From Nitrospirae bacterium GWC2_42_7 (GTDB lineage Bacteria > Nitrospirota > Thermodesulfovibrionia > Thermodesulfovibrionales > UBA6898), in contig MHDW01000232.1 in NCBI GenBank assembly GCA_001803645.1, forward strand, positions 2,840 through 20,290: a DNA stretch of 17,451 nucleotides, read 5' to 3'. Made by a program: the position numbers and the translations under genes. Positions 1,623-14,887 of this stretch are shown in pieces. The first letter of the stretch is position 1. Every line of letters begins with the position of its first letter. The notes under the pieces are model-generated. The model saw only the letters and a list, made by a program, of their open reading frames with translations, had not been told where the DNA came from and ran no database searches.

Positions 1623-3140
1623 ATGGGCATTAAAGACGAAAACAAACATCTGGAAGATACTGACCGCAGGTATGTCTGGCATCCTTTTACACAGATGAAG
1701 GACTGGGAAAAAGAGCCCCCTGTAATAATTGCTGAAGCGAGAGACTGTTTTTTAAGGGATATTTACGGAAAATGGTATATTGACGGAGTTTCGTCATTGT
1801 GGGTGAATATCCATGGACACAGAAAAAAAGAGATCGATGATGCCATGAAGGCACAGATCGATAAAGTTTCCCACTGCACAATGCTCGGACTGAGCAATGA
1901 GCCGGCGATAAAATTAGCTGAAAGACTGATAAAATTGGTACAGAAAAATCTATCCCCTTATCCCCTGCCTGCCGGCCAGAAAGGTTCTTCCGCCAGAGGA
2001 GAGGGTTGTATTATTTCCCCTCCCTTGAGGGCCTATGGCTCGGAGCCAACGGCTCATAGAGGAGGGGATAAAGGGGAGGGTGACTCCTCACTCCTCACTC
2101 CTTACCCCTTACTCTCCAGGGTTTTCTACTCAGACAACGGCTCAACTGCTGTTGAGGTTGCCCTGAAGATGGCGTTCCAGTACTGGAAGCACAAGGGTGT
2201 TGAGGGTAGAAAGAGTTTTGCTGCGCTCAGTAATGCCTATCATGGAGATACGCTGGGAGCTGTCAGTGTAGGAGGCATCGATATTTTTCATAAGACCTTT
2301 GAACCTCTTCTGTTTAAAACTTTTAAAGCCCCTTCTCCTTACTGCTACAGGTGCGAGCTCGGGCTTTCTCCTGAAAACTGCAGAATGGCCTGTCTTAAAG
2401 AACTTGAAGATATATTAAGAGACCATAATAATGAGATCGCAGCCCTGATCATAGAGCCGATCGTTCAGGCAGCAGGAGGAATGATAGTCTCACCTAAGGG
2501 CTATCTGAAGGGCGTGCGGGACTTATGCACAAAATATAATGTCCTTATGATCGCTGATGAAGTTGCAACCGGATTCGGCAGGACAGGAAAAATGTTCGCC
2601 TGTGAGAATGAGAACATATCTCCGGATATAATGTGTCTGTCAAAAGGCATAACAAACGGTTATATGCCTCTTGCAGTGACCATTGCTTCTGAAGAAATAT
2701 ACTCTGCCTTTCTCGGAGAATTCAAAGAGCTAAAAACTTTTTTCCATGGCCATTCATACACAGGCAATCCGCTTGCGTGTGCTGCAGCGCTTGCATGTCT
2801 TGATATATTCGAGAAAGAAGAGACGCTCAAGAATGTTCAGCCCAAGATCGGTTTGCTCGAAAAATGGCTTGGAGAATTGTCCGGTCTGTCTAATGTCGGC
2901 GATGTAAGGAACAGCGGACTGATGGCAGGCATAGAGCTTGTTAAGGACAAAAAAACAAAAGAGCCATATCCGTGGGAAGACAAGAAGGGATGGCAGGTTG
3001 CGTATTATGCCGGAGATAAGGGTGTGTTCATCAGGCCGCTTGGGAATGTTATTGTGATAATGCCGCCTTTAAGCATCAGCATGGAAAACCTTCAGCAGAT
3101 GCTTAAGGTTATAAGAGATGCGATAATGAATGTGACTTAA
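1623..3140 (+). CDS. bioA: Adenosylmethionine-8-amino-7-oxononanoate aminotransferase carrying a repeat-derived insertion
   Basis: Fold-type I PLP aminotransferase of biotin synthesis that converts 7-keto-8-aminopelargonate to 7,8-diaminopelargonate with S-adenosylmethionine. The opening RYVWHPFTQMKDW, the VSSLWVNIHGH motif (about 56-66), FYSDNGSTAVEVALKMAF (about 168-185), the PLP-binding Asp in IADEVATGFGR (D312) and the Schiff-base Lys in LSKGITNGYMPL (K341) are all intact, as is the HGHSYTGNPLACAAA block (375-389). At 505 residues it is about 50 longer than usual. The excess is residues 111-165, low-complexity translated repeat DNA placed between KNL and RVFYSDNGS, which are adjacent in ordinary BioA. 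A Cys cluster (C241, C244, C253, C257) lies mid-protein. The start is 5 bases after the preceding gene, in an apparent operon. No other bio genes are visible. The frame is unbroken, so the gene is probably functional. Confidence 0.92.
   Translation: MGIKDENKHLEDTDRRYVWHPFTQMKDWEKEPPVIIAEARDCFLRDIYGKWYIDGVSSLWVNIHGHRKKEIDDAMKAQIDKVSHCTMLGLSNEPAIKLAERLIKLVQKNLSPYPLPAGQKGSSARGEGCIISPPLRAYGSEPTAHRGGDKGEGDSSLLTPYPLLSRVFYSDNGSTAVEVALKMAFQYWKHKGVEGRKSFAALSNAYHGDTLGAVSVGGIDIFHKTFEPLLFKTFKAPSPYCYRCELGLSPENCRMACLKELEDILRDHNNEIAALIIEPIVQAAGGMIVSPKGYLKGVRDLCTKYNVLMIADEVATGFGRTGKMFACENENISPDIMCLSKGITNGYMPLAVTIASEEIYSAFLGEFKELKTFFHGHSYTGNPLACAAALACLDIFEKEETLKNVQPKIGLLEKWLGELSGLSNVGDVRNSGLMAGIELVKDKKTKEPYPWEDKKGWQVAYYAGDKGVFIRPLGNVIVIMPPLSISMENLQQMLKVIRDAIMNVT
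1953..2117 (+). repeat. In-frame composite repeat insertion inside bioA
   Basis: About 165 bases (55 codons) lacking from normal bioA genes. In order they contain: a diverged copy of the CCTGCC palindrome (about 1964-1984), a C-rich hairpin-type element starting CCCCTCCC at 2017, an embedded palindrome at 2033-2059 (perfect inner stem GAGCC/GGCTC at 2043-2055), a G-rich arm to about 2082, and five heptamers at 2083-2117. There is no stop in the bioA frame. Exact insertion ends are inferred from the BioA motif spacing. Confidence 0.8.
2083..2117 (+). repeat. Heptamer array of five units (ACTCCTC/ACTCCTT type) in bioA
   Basis: Units read ACTCCTC, ACTCCTC, ACTCCTT, ACCCCTT and ACTCTCC, 35 bases in all. 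The same unit and the same array length recur at 11486-11520 and 14853-14887, and in the opposite orientation at 11091-11125. Here it is translated and ends directly before the conserved BioA segment RVFYSDNGS. Confidence 0.8.
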
Positions 3141-10113: not shown

Positions 10114-11103
10114 ATGAGTTTAGAGAATATCATAGAGGATTTTAAAGGCAGGAATATCCTTGTGCTTGGAGATATAATCCTTGACCATTACATATGGGGC
10201 AAGGTTACCAGGATATCTCCTGAAGCGCCTGTTCCGGTGGTAGACGTTACGAGAGAGAGCTTTATGCTCGGCGGGGCTGCAAACGTTGCTCACAATATTG
10301 TATCGCTCGGAGCAAAGGCGACTGTTATCGGCATGAACGGCAGGGATGTTGCCGGAGAAGTACTTGTCAAGATGCTCGGTCAAAAAGGAGTGAATTGTGA
10401 GGGAATATTCATTTCAGACAGGCCGACTACCGTAAAAACAAGGGTGATTGCAAATAACCAGCAGGTGGTCAGGTTTGACAGGGAAAACAGGCAATACATT
10501 GACAATAAGATGATAGAAAGGATAATGAAATATTTAAATTCTGTTATTTCAAAACATGACGCCATAATAATTTCGGATTATGAAAAAGGAATGGTGACCT
10601 CAGGGCTTATCAGAGGTATCCTGAATAATTCCAAGATAAAGAAAAAGGGAAAAGGCAGAAACGGGATGTTTGTTGCTGTTGACCCTAAGATCGGGCATTT
10701 TGATTTTTACAAAAGAGTATCTCTTATTACACCTAATGTCATGGAGGCATCAAACGGTTCTAAGGTCGAGATCAAGGATGAAAAAACTCTCCTTAAAGCA
10801 GGCAAAACATTAATGACAAAGCTTGGCTGTAAGGCTGTACTGATCACACGGGGGGAACAGGGCATGAGCCTCTTCGAAAAGAATAAGGTCACCCATATAC
10901 CAACAGTTGCAAGAAAGGTCTATGATGTCACCGGTGCAGGTGATACGGTCATATCAGCTTTTACACTTGCACATGCATCAGGAGAGAGCATGGAAAATTC
11001 TGCTGTGATAGCTAATCATGCTGCAGGCATAGTCGTGGGAGAGGTCGGAACAGCTGTTGCCACTCCTGAGCAATTGTTTGAGTCATTTAAGAGTAAGGAG
11101 TGA
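10114..11103 (+). CDS. hldA: D-glycero-beta-D-manno-heptose-7-phosphate kinase (RfaE1/HldA type)
   Basis: PfkB/ribokinase-family enzyme that phosphorylates heptose 7-phosphate at C1 in the ADP-heptose pathway for LPS inner core. Hallmarks: ILVLGDIILDHYIWGKVTRISPEAPVPVV (15-43), substrate motif MLGGAANVAHN (51-61), VRFDREN (119-125), DYEKGM (155-160), TPNVMEA (206-212) and the ATP/anion-hole motif DVTGAGDT (271-278) with catalytic D277. It is a stand-alone kinase, since there is no C-terminal nucleotidyltransferase domain. A short basic insert (KIKKKGKGRNG, 174-184) is extra. The last codons, SKE and the stop, are read from a heptamer repeat array (11091-11125). No Shine-Dalgarno is evident, and TATATT lies at 10100-10105, 8 bases before the ATG. 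Confidence 0.9.
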   Translation: MSLENIIEDFKGRNILVLGDIILDHYIWGKVTRISPEAPVPVVDVTRESFMLGGAANVAHNIVSLGAKATVIGMNGRDVAGEVLVKMLGQKGVNCEGIFISDRPTTVKTRVIANNQQVVRFDRENRQYIDNKMIERIMKYLNSVISKHDAIIISDYEKGMVTSGLIRGILNNSKIKKKGKGRNGMFVAVDPKIGHFDFYKRVSLITPNVMEASNGSKVEIKDEKTLLKAGKTLMTKLGCKAVLITRGEQGMSLFEKNKVTHIPTVARKVYDVTGAGDTVISAFTLAHASGESMENSAVIANHAAGIVVGEVGTAVATPEQLFESFKSKE

Positions 11104-11125
11104 GGCGTAAGGGGTAAGGGGTGAA
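11091..11125 (+). repeat. Left heptamer array (five units, GAGTAAG type)
   Basis: Units GAGTAAG, GAGTGAG, GCGTAAG, GGGTAAG, GGGTGAA. It encodes the final S-K-E-stop of the heptose kinase and contains the GTG start (11121) of the next gene, and its GGGGTAAGGGG may act as a poor Shine-Dalgarno. Confidence 0.8.
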
Positions 11126-11477
11126 AAGGACACACCATAATCTCATTGTTTGGCAAGAAGCCATAATTCTTGTAAAAGACATATATTGTATTACTAAAAA
11201 CTTTCCAAAAGAAGAAACGTTTGGACTTACAAGTCAAATTCGTCGTGCTGCTGTTTCTGTCCCTTGCAATATAGCAGAAGGAGCAGCGCGGACCAGCAAT
11301 AAAGAAATGTTACAATTTTTGTCTGTTGCAAGAGGTTTTTTGAGTGAATTAGAGACTCAGGTTATTATTTCAAAAGAATTGGGATATTTAAAAGAAAATA
11401 CAGAACTTAAGCATAAGATTGACACTGTTTTTAGTCTGCTTGGAGGGCTTATTAATTCAATAAGGAAAAAAGTATAA
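11121..11477 (+). CDS. Four-helix-bundle protein of the 23S rRNA intervening-sequence (S23/Avd-like) family
   Basis: A 118-residue helical protein. The family core is clear: HHNLIVWQEAIILVKDIY (5-22), NFPKEETFGLTSQIRRAAVSVPCNIAEGAAR (27-57), then the block EMLQFLSVARGFLSELETQ (62-80). Relatives are encoded inside 23S rRNA intervening sequences, exist as many dispersed stand-alone genes, and include the Avd accessory protein of diversity-generating retroelements. The fold is known to form pentameric barrels that bind nucleic acid, but the role of stand-alone copies is unknown. No reverse transcriptase or rRNA is nearby. The GTG start lies within the left heptamer array, and the stop overlaps the next start codon (TAATG), allowing translational coupling. 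The direct setting between unrelated housekeeping genes suggests insertion. Confidence 0.85.
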   Translation: MKRTHHNLIVWQEAIILVKDIYCITKNFPKEETFGLTSQIRRAAVSVPCNIAEGAARTSNKEMLQFLSVARGFLSELETQVIISKELGYLKENTELKHKIDTVFSLLGGLINSIRKKV

Positions 11478-12547
11478 TGTCTGATACTCCTTACTCCTCA
11501 CTCCTTACTCCTCACTCATCAATTAAGGCTGTTGCCTTATATTCCGGCGGCCTTGACAGCACACTTGCGATACTTGCAGTTCTGAAGCAGGGGATCGAAG
11601 TAAGGGCAGTGACCTTCCTGAATCATTTTGGCTGCGGGATAGAAGAGAAGTCTTCATGTTCAAAGGACCCTTTTTCTGCAGCTGTAAAATTCGGGTTTGA
11701 TGTGAGGCTTTCACATCTATCGGAAAAATTCATAGAGATCGTGAAGAACCCGAAGTTCGGACATGGCAGAAACATGAACCCGTGCATGGACTGCAGGATC
11801 CTTATGCTTAGAGAGATCAAAGAATATATGAATATGACAGGCGCTGAATTTGTGATAACAGGTGAGGTCCTTGGCCAGAGGCCGATGAGCCAGAGGAGAG
11901 ATGCACTCGACATCATAGACAGGGAATCAGGGCTGAAAGGATATATCTTGAGGCCTCTCAGCGCTAAACTGCTGAAGCCGACCATACCTGAAGAAAAGGG
12001 GATAATAAACAGAGAGCTTTTATATGCATTTGGCGGCCGTTCCAGAAAGCCTCAGATGTCTCTCGCAAGAGAATTCGGCCTTACGGATTATCCTGCACCC
12101 GCAGGTGGGTGCTTACTGACAGAGCCGAATTATTCTCACAGGCTTAAGGAACTTCTTGAGTATGACCAGAACCCGTCTGTTGAAGACCTGCTTTTGCTGA
12201 AACTCGGCAGGCATTTCAGGATGTCTTCTGAGTGCAAAGTTATTGTAGGCAGGAATGAGGATGAGAATAACTCTCTGTTTGCAATATCAGGCAATAAATG
12301 GACATATATGATAGCAGAGAACTGCGGAAGCCCTGTCACAGTTATCAGGGGGGAAGCCGGTGAAGAGATAATACATACTGCTGCAGCTATCTGCGCAAGA
12401 TATTCTGATGCAGGAGCCCTCAACATTGTGGATGTAAGTATTTATAAGGGAGAAGACAGGTATCAACTGACCGTATCCCCGGCAAAAAAAGATATTATCG
12501 ATAATTTCAGGATAGAATGGAAAAAGACAGTTATGAGCAGGCGGTAA
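11477..12547 (+). CDS. PP-loop ATPase fused to an NFACT-R-like domain; predicted tRNA thiolation-type enzyme
   Basis: A 356-residue two-domain protein. The N-terminal PP-loop (adenylation) motif is SGGLDSTLA at 23-31. A CxxC pair (C103, C106), lone Cys residues (C53, C61, C212) and the block TGEVLGQRPMSQRRDAL (128-144) resemble ThiI/MnmA-like thiolases, which adenylate a nucleobase and transfer sulfur. The C-terminal part from about 238, with FRMSSECKVIVGRNEDEN (247-264) and a later AAAICARYSDAG segment (302-313), resembles the NFACT-R (DUF814) RNA-binding domain. The fusion is known from comparative genomics, but substrate RNA and exact modification are not known to me. Residues 2-15 (SDTPYSSLLTPHSS) are translated heptamer repeats. 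The ancestral start was probably close to the IKAVALYSGG segment. It overlaps the preceding stop by one base. Confidence 0.8.
   Translation: MSDTPYSSLLTPHSSIKAVALYSGGLDSTLAILAVLKQGIEVRAVTFLNHFGCGIEEKSSCSKDPFSAAVKFGFDVRLSHLSEKFIEIVKNPKFGHGRNMNPCMDCRILMLREIKEYMNMTGAEFVITGEVLGQRPMSQRRDALDIIDRESGLKGYILRPLSAKLLKPTIPEEKGIINRELLYAFGGRSRKPQMSLAREFGLTDYPAPAGGCLLTEPNYSHRLKELLEYDQNPSVEDLLLLKLGRHFRMSSECKVIVGRNEDENNSLFAISGNKWTYMIAENCGSPVTVIRGEAGEEIIHTAAAICARYSDAGALNIVDVSIYKGEDRYQLTVSPAKKDIIDNFRIEWKKTVMSRR
11486..11520 (+). repeat. Right heptamer array (five units, ACTCCTT/ACTCCTC)
   Basis: Units ACTCCTT, ACTCCTC, ACTCCTT, ACTCCTC, ACTCATC. It is inverted relative to 11091-11125 and is translated as the start of the PP-loop protein. 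Confidence 0.85.
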
Positions 12548-13822: not shown

Positions 13823-14719
13823 TCAAAGCCTGACCGGAACCCCTTTTGATCTCAGATATTCTTTTGCCTCTCTGACAGAATATTCCCTGAAGTGGAAGAT
13901 GGAAGCTGCAAGTGCTGCGTCTGCCTTGCCATTGACGAGCCCTTCATAGAGATGCTCCAGTGTGCCGGCACCGCCAGATGCAATTACAGGGATCGATACA
14001 GTCTCTGAGATGATACGGGTCAATTCAATATCATAACCGTCTTTTGTCCCATCCTTGTCCATGCTTGTTAGCATGAATTCGCCGGCCCCGAGTTCTTCCA
14101 TTTTCTTCGCCCATTTAACAGCATTCATCAGCTTCATTTTCCTGCCGCCGTGAGTGGACAGAGCCCAAACAGTTTCTCCGTCCATCCCCCCCTTACCAAG
14201 GGGGCCTGCCTGTCCGGTAGGCAGGGGCGAAGGGGGGGTAGGCAGTTTAAGGATCACATCCTTCAATGAAGCATCGGAGAACCAGCCTTCGCCTGTAGCA
14301 TCAGACATGTTATCCGAAACTCTCTTTGCATCAATCGCAACCACTATGCACTGGCTGCCGAATTTCTCTGCAGCGCGGCTTATAAAGTAAGGGTCTTTTA
14401 CTGCGGTTGTGTTGATAGATACTTTGTCGCATCCTGCATTGAGAAGGTCTCTGATGTCCTCAAGGGTTTTTATCCCGCCTCCAACAGTTAGAGGCATAAA
14501 AACATCTTCAGCGGTCTTCCTGACTATATCCAGAATTGTCTTTCTTTTCTCATGAGAGGCTGTTATGTCAAGAAAAATGAGCTCATCTGCGCCCTGTTCG
14601 TCATAGAACCTTGCATTTTCAACAGGATCACCGGCATCGCGAAGATTAACAAAGCTTACGCCTTTTACCACGCGTCCGTCTTTTACATCAAGACAGGGAA
14701 TAATACGTTTAGCAAGCAT
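13823..14719 (-). CDS. hisF: Imidazole glycerol phosphate synthase cyclase subunit HisF with a repeat-derived insertion
   Basis: TIM-barrel cyclase of histidine synthesis that uses ammonia from HisH to turn PRFAR into imidazole glycerol phosphate and AICAR. The N-terminus [19 protein letters not shown] contains catalytic D11. D130 (VVAIDAKR), LTVGGGI (77-83), THGGRK (189-194), [17 protein letters not shown] (217-233) and [10 protein letters not shown] (243-252) are all present. At 298 residues it is about 45 longer than usual. The excess lies between AIDAKR (133) and the [10 protein letters not shown] segment, in the beta5-alpha5 loop, and about 23 of those residues (159-181) are translated repeat DNA. 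The frame and catalytic residues are intact, so activity is likely. It lies downstream of hisA, and hisH is not in the window. The ATG start matches the family N-terminus. Confidence 0.92.
14181..14240 (+). repeat. C-rich hairpin element with nested palindrome, inside hisF
   Basis: Stem CCCCCTT (14188-14194) / AAGGGGG (14198-14204), then a 21-nt copy of the palindrome with one extra T (14205-14225), then GGCGAAGGGGGGG. It is translated on the minus strand within the HisF insertion as [20 protein letters not shown]. Confidence 0.8.
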
Positions 14720-14730
14720 CGTTAAAAACC

Positions 14731-14887
14731 GTGAGGCGTGAGGTGTGAGGTGTGAGGTGTACGTAGTAAGGAGTCAGGTGAAGGGGGTTAGGGGTTAAAA
14801 ATAAACACAGCAGAGTGAAAAGTGAATTTATTCTTACTTTTGTATAAAGTTTCTCACTCCTCACTCCTTACTCCTTACTCATTACTA
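14731..14887. repeat. Inverted heptamer arrays with a short gene-less centre, between hisA and hisF
   Basis: The left arm from 14731 has about nine GTGAGGT-type heptamers, degenerating toward 14793. The right arm at 14853-14887 has five (CTCACTC twice, CTTACTC twice, ATTACTA). The arms are inverted, as around the four-helix-bundle gene, but the 59-base centre has no gene. The right arm forms the 3' end of hisA. Confidence 0.7.

Follow-up and report, generated by a model that had tools for sequence, protein, structure and literature searches.

In Coxiella, the intervening sequence (IVS) of the 23S rRNA gene is described, in the passages of PMC4990558 drawn on here, as 428 nt long with complementary ends and an S23p open reading frame (ORF) in sense orientation, as a rule preceded by three tandem heptamers, and it is excised by RNase III, which cuts in the stem. 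Tandem heptamers have also been described as genome-wide repeats. The excerpts of PMC4692102 used here report an over-representation of heptameric repeats in various bacteria, count 186 GGGAATC arrays with 70 inverted pairs in Xanthomonas campestris (for two Xanthomonas strains the numbers of such pairs are 70 and 75), describe these arrays as generally not associated with mobile elements, and tie them to no gene. TAACTGA direct repeats are abundant in Beggiatoaceae according to passages of PMC4679880, in which the IVP family was not mentioned under the terms tried, and a 23S rRNA IVP is included in a list of novel CRISPR associations in one figure legend of PMC10910872. For the IVP/S23 protein family structures have been solved and no function is given in this literature, which likewise gives no source for the heptameric repeats.

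The locus described here resembles the Coxiella IVS in its protein family, inverted ends, similar length, sense ORF and heptamers before the ORF, as far as these are set out in the passages of PMC4990558. Unlike the rRNA IVSs of Coxiella, Leptospira and others, it lies between two protein-coding genes and not inside an rRNA gene, both of its arms are heptamer arrays, and their word is tied to the element. A preliminary description, made from the letters of this DNA, had likened its organization to rRNA intervening sequences; the parallel is closer than was claimed, since the Coxiella IVS has tandem heptamers too (PMC4990558, same passages). A search of the open-access literature, with subscription papers and preprints outside its scope, returned no report of non-rRNA IVP genes between heptamer arrays.

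The IVP unit and its protein

The window, that is, the whole stretch of 17,451 nucleotides analyzed (contig MHDW01000232.1 of Nitrospirae bacterium GWC2_42_7), contains a unit of ~430 bp in which a single IVP gene is flanked on both sides by arrays, inverted relative to each other, of a heptamer specific to the element. The unit and its neighbors are as follows.

10114..11103, + strand: upstream host gene, HldE-type heptose-phosphate kinase domain (TIGR02198)
11088..11122, + strand: left (upstream) arm, five imperfect heptamers of type GT[A/G]AGGN; holds the kinase stop codon and runs into the first bases of the IVP ORF
11121..11477, + strand: IVP gene, 118 aa, GTG start, PF05635/TIGR02436, predicted four-helix bundle
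11477..12547, + strand: downstream host gene, ThiI-like/NFACT-R_2; homologues align from about residue 15-17
11486..11520, + strand: right (downstream) arm, five heptamers, the left word reverse-complemented; translated as an N-terminal extension of the ThiI-like protein

Each array is 35 nt long and consists of five heptamers, the units being imperfect, and the sense-strand word is GT[A/G]AGGN upstream of the IVP gene and its complement downstream, so that complementary ends surround the ORF as in rRNA intervening sequences. The longest ungapped inverted match of the arms joins 11091-11116 to 11485-11510 (26 nt, 92% complementary, 368 nt apart). The inverted Smith-Waterman score of the arms was 42; when the 150-nt flanks were shuffled 2000 times, no shuffle scored above 32, and flank pairs of identical geometry at 304 other window positions scored at most 25. 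The two mutually inverted 35-nt arms of five heptamers that had been read by eye are therefore real, although reading of the left array, previously started at 11091, can begin at 11088. The end of the kinase gene (10114-11103) falls within the left array, the start of the ThiI-like gene (11477) lies on the stop codon of the IVP gene, and the right array is contained in the first ~15 ThiI-like codons; the unit thus sits between two genes and overlaps both, as had been noted. In the predicted fold of the RNA of 11088-11522 the arms pair with each other (-133.1 kcal/mol, z -7.55). An Rfam search of the window gave 0 matches.

In profile searches, the window ORF matched PF05635 (23S_rRNA_IVP; 122 bits, cut-off 33.8, E 1.5e-35) and TIGR02436 (117.8 bits, cut-off 24), in agreement with the earlier assignment of the small enclosed gene to the 23S-IVP family; it did not match PF01797 (Y1 transposase), and it scored 24.4 bits against the Avd model, below the cut-off of 80. 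The protein was predicted as a four-helix bundle, the fold of the family (pLDDT 96), and the model was matched to 2gsc (X. campestris XCC0516; TM 0.93), likewise to 2rld, and to Avd, a protein of diversity-generating retroelements (DGRs) (4dwl; TM 0.77). IVP proteins are basic (median pI 9.0, n = 111; window protein 9.4). Values of dN/dS were 0.05-0.25 in 10 of 11 IVP gene pairs, with one undefined, which indicates that the gene is under purifying selection. Phage records searched with the IVP protein gave no match.

Inverted arms across the IVP family

Four PF05635 genes with unrelated neighbors were found in the GWC2_42_7 genome (2.58 Mb, 71% complete), and inspection by eye placed all four between inverted arrays, each pair built of a word of its own. 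For systematic scoring, arms were called where the inverted score between 200-nt flanks was at least 25; one of the four copies (L001) scored 21, under this threshold. A PF05635 gene was present in 65 of 101 genomes of the same family and order, and from the 204 matches of this order-level set 114 were examined, mostly the better-scoring and intact ones. Scores of 25 or more were obtained for 87 of the 114 loci, compared with 4.3% of 12,640 flank pairs taken from different genomes, 1/30 control ParE genes and 0/29 control ThiI-like genes. A direct flank match of at least 25 was also present at 48/114.

Named genomes yielded at least 577 IVP relatives, of which the best 80 were kept and 78 had enough flank. 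By their titles the best 80 belong to Bacteroidota, Proteobacteria, Acidobacteriota, Planctomycetota, Chloroflexota, Patescibacteria, Spirochaetota and others. Among the 78 multi-phylum loci from this best 80, 66 scored 25 or more, compared with 6.2% of mismatched flank pairs; below the arm score were 12 of these 78 genes and 27/114 in the order-level set. When each locus was shuffled separately (150-nt flanks, p ≤ 0.05), 90/114 order-level loci and 68/78 multi-phylum loci passed, compared with 1/30 ParE and 1/29 ThiI-like genes (2/59). Homologues therefore do co-occur with arms, which the preliminary description had proposed as a check. No rRNA was detected in an Rfam scan of 14 named IVP loci.

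Heptamer words of the arms

Periods of 7, 14 and 21 nt were present in the flanks of IVP genes and absent from control flanks, and identity at lag 7 was 0.34-0.37 in the former vs 0.26-0.27 in the latter. A strict four-unit array was found in both flanks at 30/114 order-level loci and at 32/78 loci from the best 80 of at least 577 relatives; the frequency among single control flanks was 4/118. The 169 strict arms, once aligned, shared the core A-G-T-G-A-N-N (G 0.80, T 0.66, A 0.75), with an information content of 3.27 bits vs at most 2.62 in 20 permuted sets. More than half of the bases were purines on the sense strand in 65/81 upstream arms and in 21/88 downstream arms.

Both arms of a locus share one word: upstream and downstream words were within two letters of each other at 47/62 loci, compared with 12.6% of mismatched pairs. 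Between loci, with 38 pairs that had similar flanks removed, words were within one letter in 43.8% of 89 pairs at ≥60% protein identity and in 2.1% of 1997 pairs at 30-40% identity, which indicates that the word of an element follows the lineage of its protein. This link can reflect common descent of the whole unit and is not by itself proof of recognition.

Gene-free sites

At 32/37 loci examined in relatives, the kinase gene lies next to the ThiI-like gene with no IVP gene between them. In a first set 27/29 were gene-free at this junction, the other two showing the ThiI-like gene only, and in a further set 5/8 were gene-free, the other three showing ThiI only. Kinase stop and ThiI-like start overlap at three gene-free junctions (L039, L055, L059), and single short arrays stand at three gene-free junctions from sister genera (L036, L048, L050). 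Arms-only inverted pairs were found at the junction in L040 and L294 (0/1000 shuffles each) and in L301 (12/1000); another pair picked by eye, in L046, was rejected (696/1000). Empty sites between the flanking genes, for which the preliminary description had called, thus exist, and elsewhere some have nearly identical flanks.

The latter were found on plasmids. IVP protein matched 31 plasmid records, all but six cyanobacterial by listing. At nine plasmid loci examined, clear two-sided arms were present in five, and in the remaining four, one side or both carried an array or single unit at most. For eight plasmid insertion sites a gene-free counterpart was found, with flank identity of 85-99.7%. 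T. variabilis and Scytonema are filled where N. linckia and Tolypothrix are gene-free; C052 and ATCC 53789 supply filled/gene-free pairs in both directions; the PCC 7003 insertion lies between cas10 and cmr3, and PCC 7002 is gene-free; Calothrix NIES-22 is filled and N. carneum gene-free; Aulosira is filled and Tolypothrix gene-free; the N. edaphicum element is antisense, between ribonucleotide reductase genes, and Calothrix NIES-4105 is gene-free; and the Anabaena 90 insertion lies between cas6 and cas4, where Dolichospermum is gene-free with a different 273-nt stretch. Inserts were 406-518 nt long, except for that of Anabaena 90 (849 nt). At the seven sites besides Anabaena 90, 8 nt were imperfectly duplicated, 3 nt were duplicated, or 2-32 nt were replaced; there is therefore no constant target duplication, and of the two marks of DNA transposons and MITEs only gene-free sites, not a target-site duplication of fixed length, were seen. 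Because gene-free sites exist and arrays stand at the ends of most insertions, gene and arms together are one insertion unit at several independent sites. Two of the plasmid insertions lie inside cas operons and their relatives are gene-free, so links between IVP and CRISPR may be hitch-hiking.

Dispersed arrays of the same word

The word of the unit recurs elsewhere in the window.

2083..2114, + strand: dispersed array, same word, within a class-III aminotransferase ORF
14731..14760, + strand: dispersed array, word class GTGAGGY, left member of an inverted pair (score 27) with no IVP-family ORF between
14853..14886, + strand: dispersed array, same word, right member of the pair with 14731..14760

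Among 40 named loci, arrays of the locus's own word lay outside ±350 nt of the IVP gene at 13, with a mean of 0.775 per locus; words of other loci, counted in the same 40 regions, gave 0.028 per locus (2.1%). In the GWC2_42_7 genome, ACTCCTN with one mismatch had 33 pattern matches, corresponding to 16 sites outside the element, and the same word thus occurs in several tandem arrays of one genome, as in dispersed heptameric repeats. The backwards-pattern control for ACTCCTN was uninformative, this word being close to a mirror repeat. Across the 101 genomes, GTRAGGN matched in 18, and GWC2_42_7 had the highest count (31); G005 had 12, and its only IVP bears the same word. At genome level, in counts that include the elements' own arms, two of three words went together with an IVP carrying them (p 0.009 and 8e-6), and the third showed no such link (p 0.18). 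For some arrays, such as those of TTGAATN in G005, the search gave no matching IVP. Arms-only (MITE-like) pairs were dropped as a general rule: near solo arrays they were not enriched (34/110 within 250 nt vs 29/110 in the control interval, 600-850 nt away), and in the GWC2_42_7 genome a significant inverted partner was found for 0 of 13 solo arrays.

Orientation and candidate helper enzymes

Orientation was counted at 203 loci, with the longest open frames within 400 nt taken as neighbors; 83 had mixed or missing neighbors. Where the neighbors were co-directional, the IVP gene was sense to them at 115 loci (64+45+6) and antisense at 5 (2+2+1). Insertions are thus mostly in sense orientation between co-directional genes, and the element is therefore probably expressed by read-through. 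Mismatches of the arms on the sense strand were G.U in 175 cases and A.C in 170, a null result for selection on the arms at the RNA level, with no RNA-strand bias. Given this lack of G.U preference, complementarity may matter as DNA or be maintained by copying.

The element encodes no known recombinase or nuclease. Reverse transcriptase was found in 29/65 IVP-bearing and 10/36 other genomes (p 0.14) and Y1 transposase in 53/65 and 20/36 (p 0.01, a weak link), some of the genomes being incomplete. Both were absent from 10 IVP-bearing genomes, again some incomplete, and by co-occurrence neither would be required for mobilization in trans. The GWC2_42_7 genome (71% complete) had no RVT_1 match and no PF01797 match.

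Interpretation and alternatives

The window unit is probably a minimal selfish mobile element. This was the suggestion of the preliminary description, and it is now well supported because homologues have arms, gene-free sites exist and the parallel with intervening sequences is closer than supposed. Evidence against it includes that no movement was observed, that the plasmid sites show no constant target duplication and that no known recombinase or nuclease is present. Also against it stand the IVP genes below the arm score (27/114 and 12/78), the plasmid loci lacking clear two-sided arms (4 of 9), the absence of RNA-strand bias, the missing enrichment of arms-only pairs, the one word of three without a genome-level link, and common descent as a possible cause of the link between word and protein. 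The accompanying proposal of the preliminary description, that the protein would act on the folded arms, gains no support from the arm mismatches (G.U 175, A.C 170), which do not show selection on the folded RNA. In the best reading, rRNA intervening sequences are the known special case of such an element. Read-through of the host operon would express the IVP gene, and the basic, probably ring-forming protein would recognize its own word in arrays, whether presented as RNA or as DNA in hairpin or cruciform form; this reading of the word by the protein is the mechanism we prefer by inference. Host enzymes of replication, repair or RNA processing would then place a copy of the unit at another gene junction, leaving no target duplication of fixed length. 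Gene-less arrays would be relics or non-autonomous copies, and rRNA intervening sequences would be elements of the IVP kind that landed in rRNA genes.

The arrays might instead have come first, as dispersed hot spots or landing sites, which would make the arms targets and not parts of the element. This would fit the single short arrays without a gene at the window junction in sister genera (L036, L048, L050), the 13 of 114 order-level loci at which the direct flank match alone passes 25 and the inverted match does not, and the persistence of arrays in genomes without a matching IVP. However, no array is present at most gene-free plasmid sites (T. variabilis, C052, ATCC 53789, PCC 7002, Calothrix NIES-4105), insertion into a direct array does not produce inverted arms, and the word tracks the protein lineage across unrelated sites, so that an arrays-first origin is judged unlikely. 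It is improbable, too, that the unit serves RNA processing, with arms that form double-stranded RNA for removal from operon transcripts by RNase III and with movement incidental: the stable predicted fold (z -7.55), the strong sense orientation (115 vs 5) and RNase III cleavage of the Coxiella IVS stem (PMC4990558, passages used) speak for it, but sense-strand mismatches are no more often G.U than A.C (175 vs 170), and word and period are under tighter constraint than a simple stem requires.

Start and stop codon overlaps with both neighbors suggest translational coupling, as would be expected of an ordinary resident operon gene with regulatory repeats, but the kinase and ThiI-like genes are adjacent without an IVP gene at 32/37 loci and the four GWC2_42_7 copies have unrelated neighbors, which makes a resident gene very improbable. 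Various bacteria do have an excess of heptameric repeats (PMC4692102, excerpts), but an origin by chance or microsatellite noise was rejected by the shuffles, the mismatched flank pairs and the control gene families alike, and is hardly conceivable.

The mobile-element reading also sets the unit apart from other compact elements. Like MITEs and simple transposons, it is short with inverted ends and gene-free sites, but the plasmid insertions show no constant target duplication, the unit has no transposase-type ORF, and its ends are tandem arrays. With Avd of DGRs it shares the fold (4dwl, TM 0.77), but the Avd model gave 24.4 bits against a cut-off of 80 and GWC2_42_7 (71% complete) has no RVT_1 match. 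In REP/BIME systems with RAYT, one gene lies between inverted repeats, with relatives scattered in the genome; the IVP protein is not a Y1 (HUH) transposase, GWC2_42_7 has no PF01797 match, and the repeats here are 7-nt arrays, unlike REP/BIME palindromes. Heptamer arrays scattered through the genome are shared with the GGGAATC repeats of Xanthomonas and the GGGGA(C/T)T repeats of Nostoc, but here, unlike in those repeats as reported in the excerpts of PMC4692102, the word belongs to the IVP gene.

More tentatively, and with rather less confidence than for the window unit, a transposase-free class of mobile elements may exist across bacteria, in which a ring-forming four-helix-bundle protein, arms of its own word and host enzymes suffice, and which would be the source of dispersed heptameric repeats (Xanthomonas GGGAATC, Nostoc GGGGATT and similar ones) and of rRNA intervening sequences. 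The finding connects a protein family that has no assigned function with bacterial heptamer repeats that have lacked an explanation. Should gene and word form a single system, the IVP gene of a genome would allow its word to be predicted, and naturally occurring pairs of protein and word would spell out a seven-letter recognition code; rRNA intervening sequences would then represent a general element at one of its landing sites. X. campestris, a species with GGGAATC arrays, is also the source of the solved IVP protein 2gsc, and if the reading is true the gene for this protein (XCC0516) is predicted to lie between such arrays.

Insertion sites between cas genes

The element, a 23S_rRNA_IVP (PF05635) gene between inverted heptamer arrays, was located between cas6 and cas4 in Anabaena 90; a plasmid of PCC 7003 carries it between cas10 and cmr3. 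These two placements may be the source of the CRISPR links reported for the IVP family. In the Dolichospermum counterpart of the Anabaena 90 site, which is without the IVP gene, the position was occupied by another stretch of 273 nt with inverted ends, GTAGGTTGGGTTG ... AACCCAACCTAC, and the one junction therefore seems to have taken up two kinds of insert.

Arrays in and between host genes

Repeats and a low-complexity stretch elsewhere in the window were as follows.

2083-2114, in-frame array of the element's heptamer word, within the class-III aminotransferase ORF
14150-14230, unusual low-complexity stretch of 18 residues within the HisF ORF
14731-14886, two mutually inverted arrays of the element's word class, where the hisF and hisA genes meet (inverted score 27)

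Other GC-rich repeats surround the aminotransferase array (~1950-2130), and the whole stretch looks like an in-frame insert; the low-complexity residues of HisF may be another such insert, made of repeats. Some 95 nt separate the two arrays at hisF/hisA, and no IVP gene lies between them. In several genera the N-terminal extension of the ThiI-like protein is the translated right-hand array, as at 11477-11521 of the window and at the related loci L037, L040 and L045.

Copies and arrays in individual genomes

Two IVP copies in genome G038 (L011 and L066) were 95% identical over the 532 nt compared, each containing an internal stop, and are possibly a recent duplication. Tandem repeats near both copies appeared CRISPR-like by eye. 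Genome G005 contained TTGAATN arrays (19 matches), possibly remnants of a lost element; its sole IVP bears a different word.
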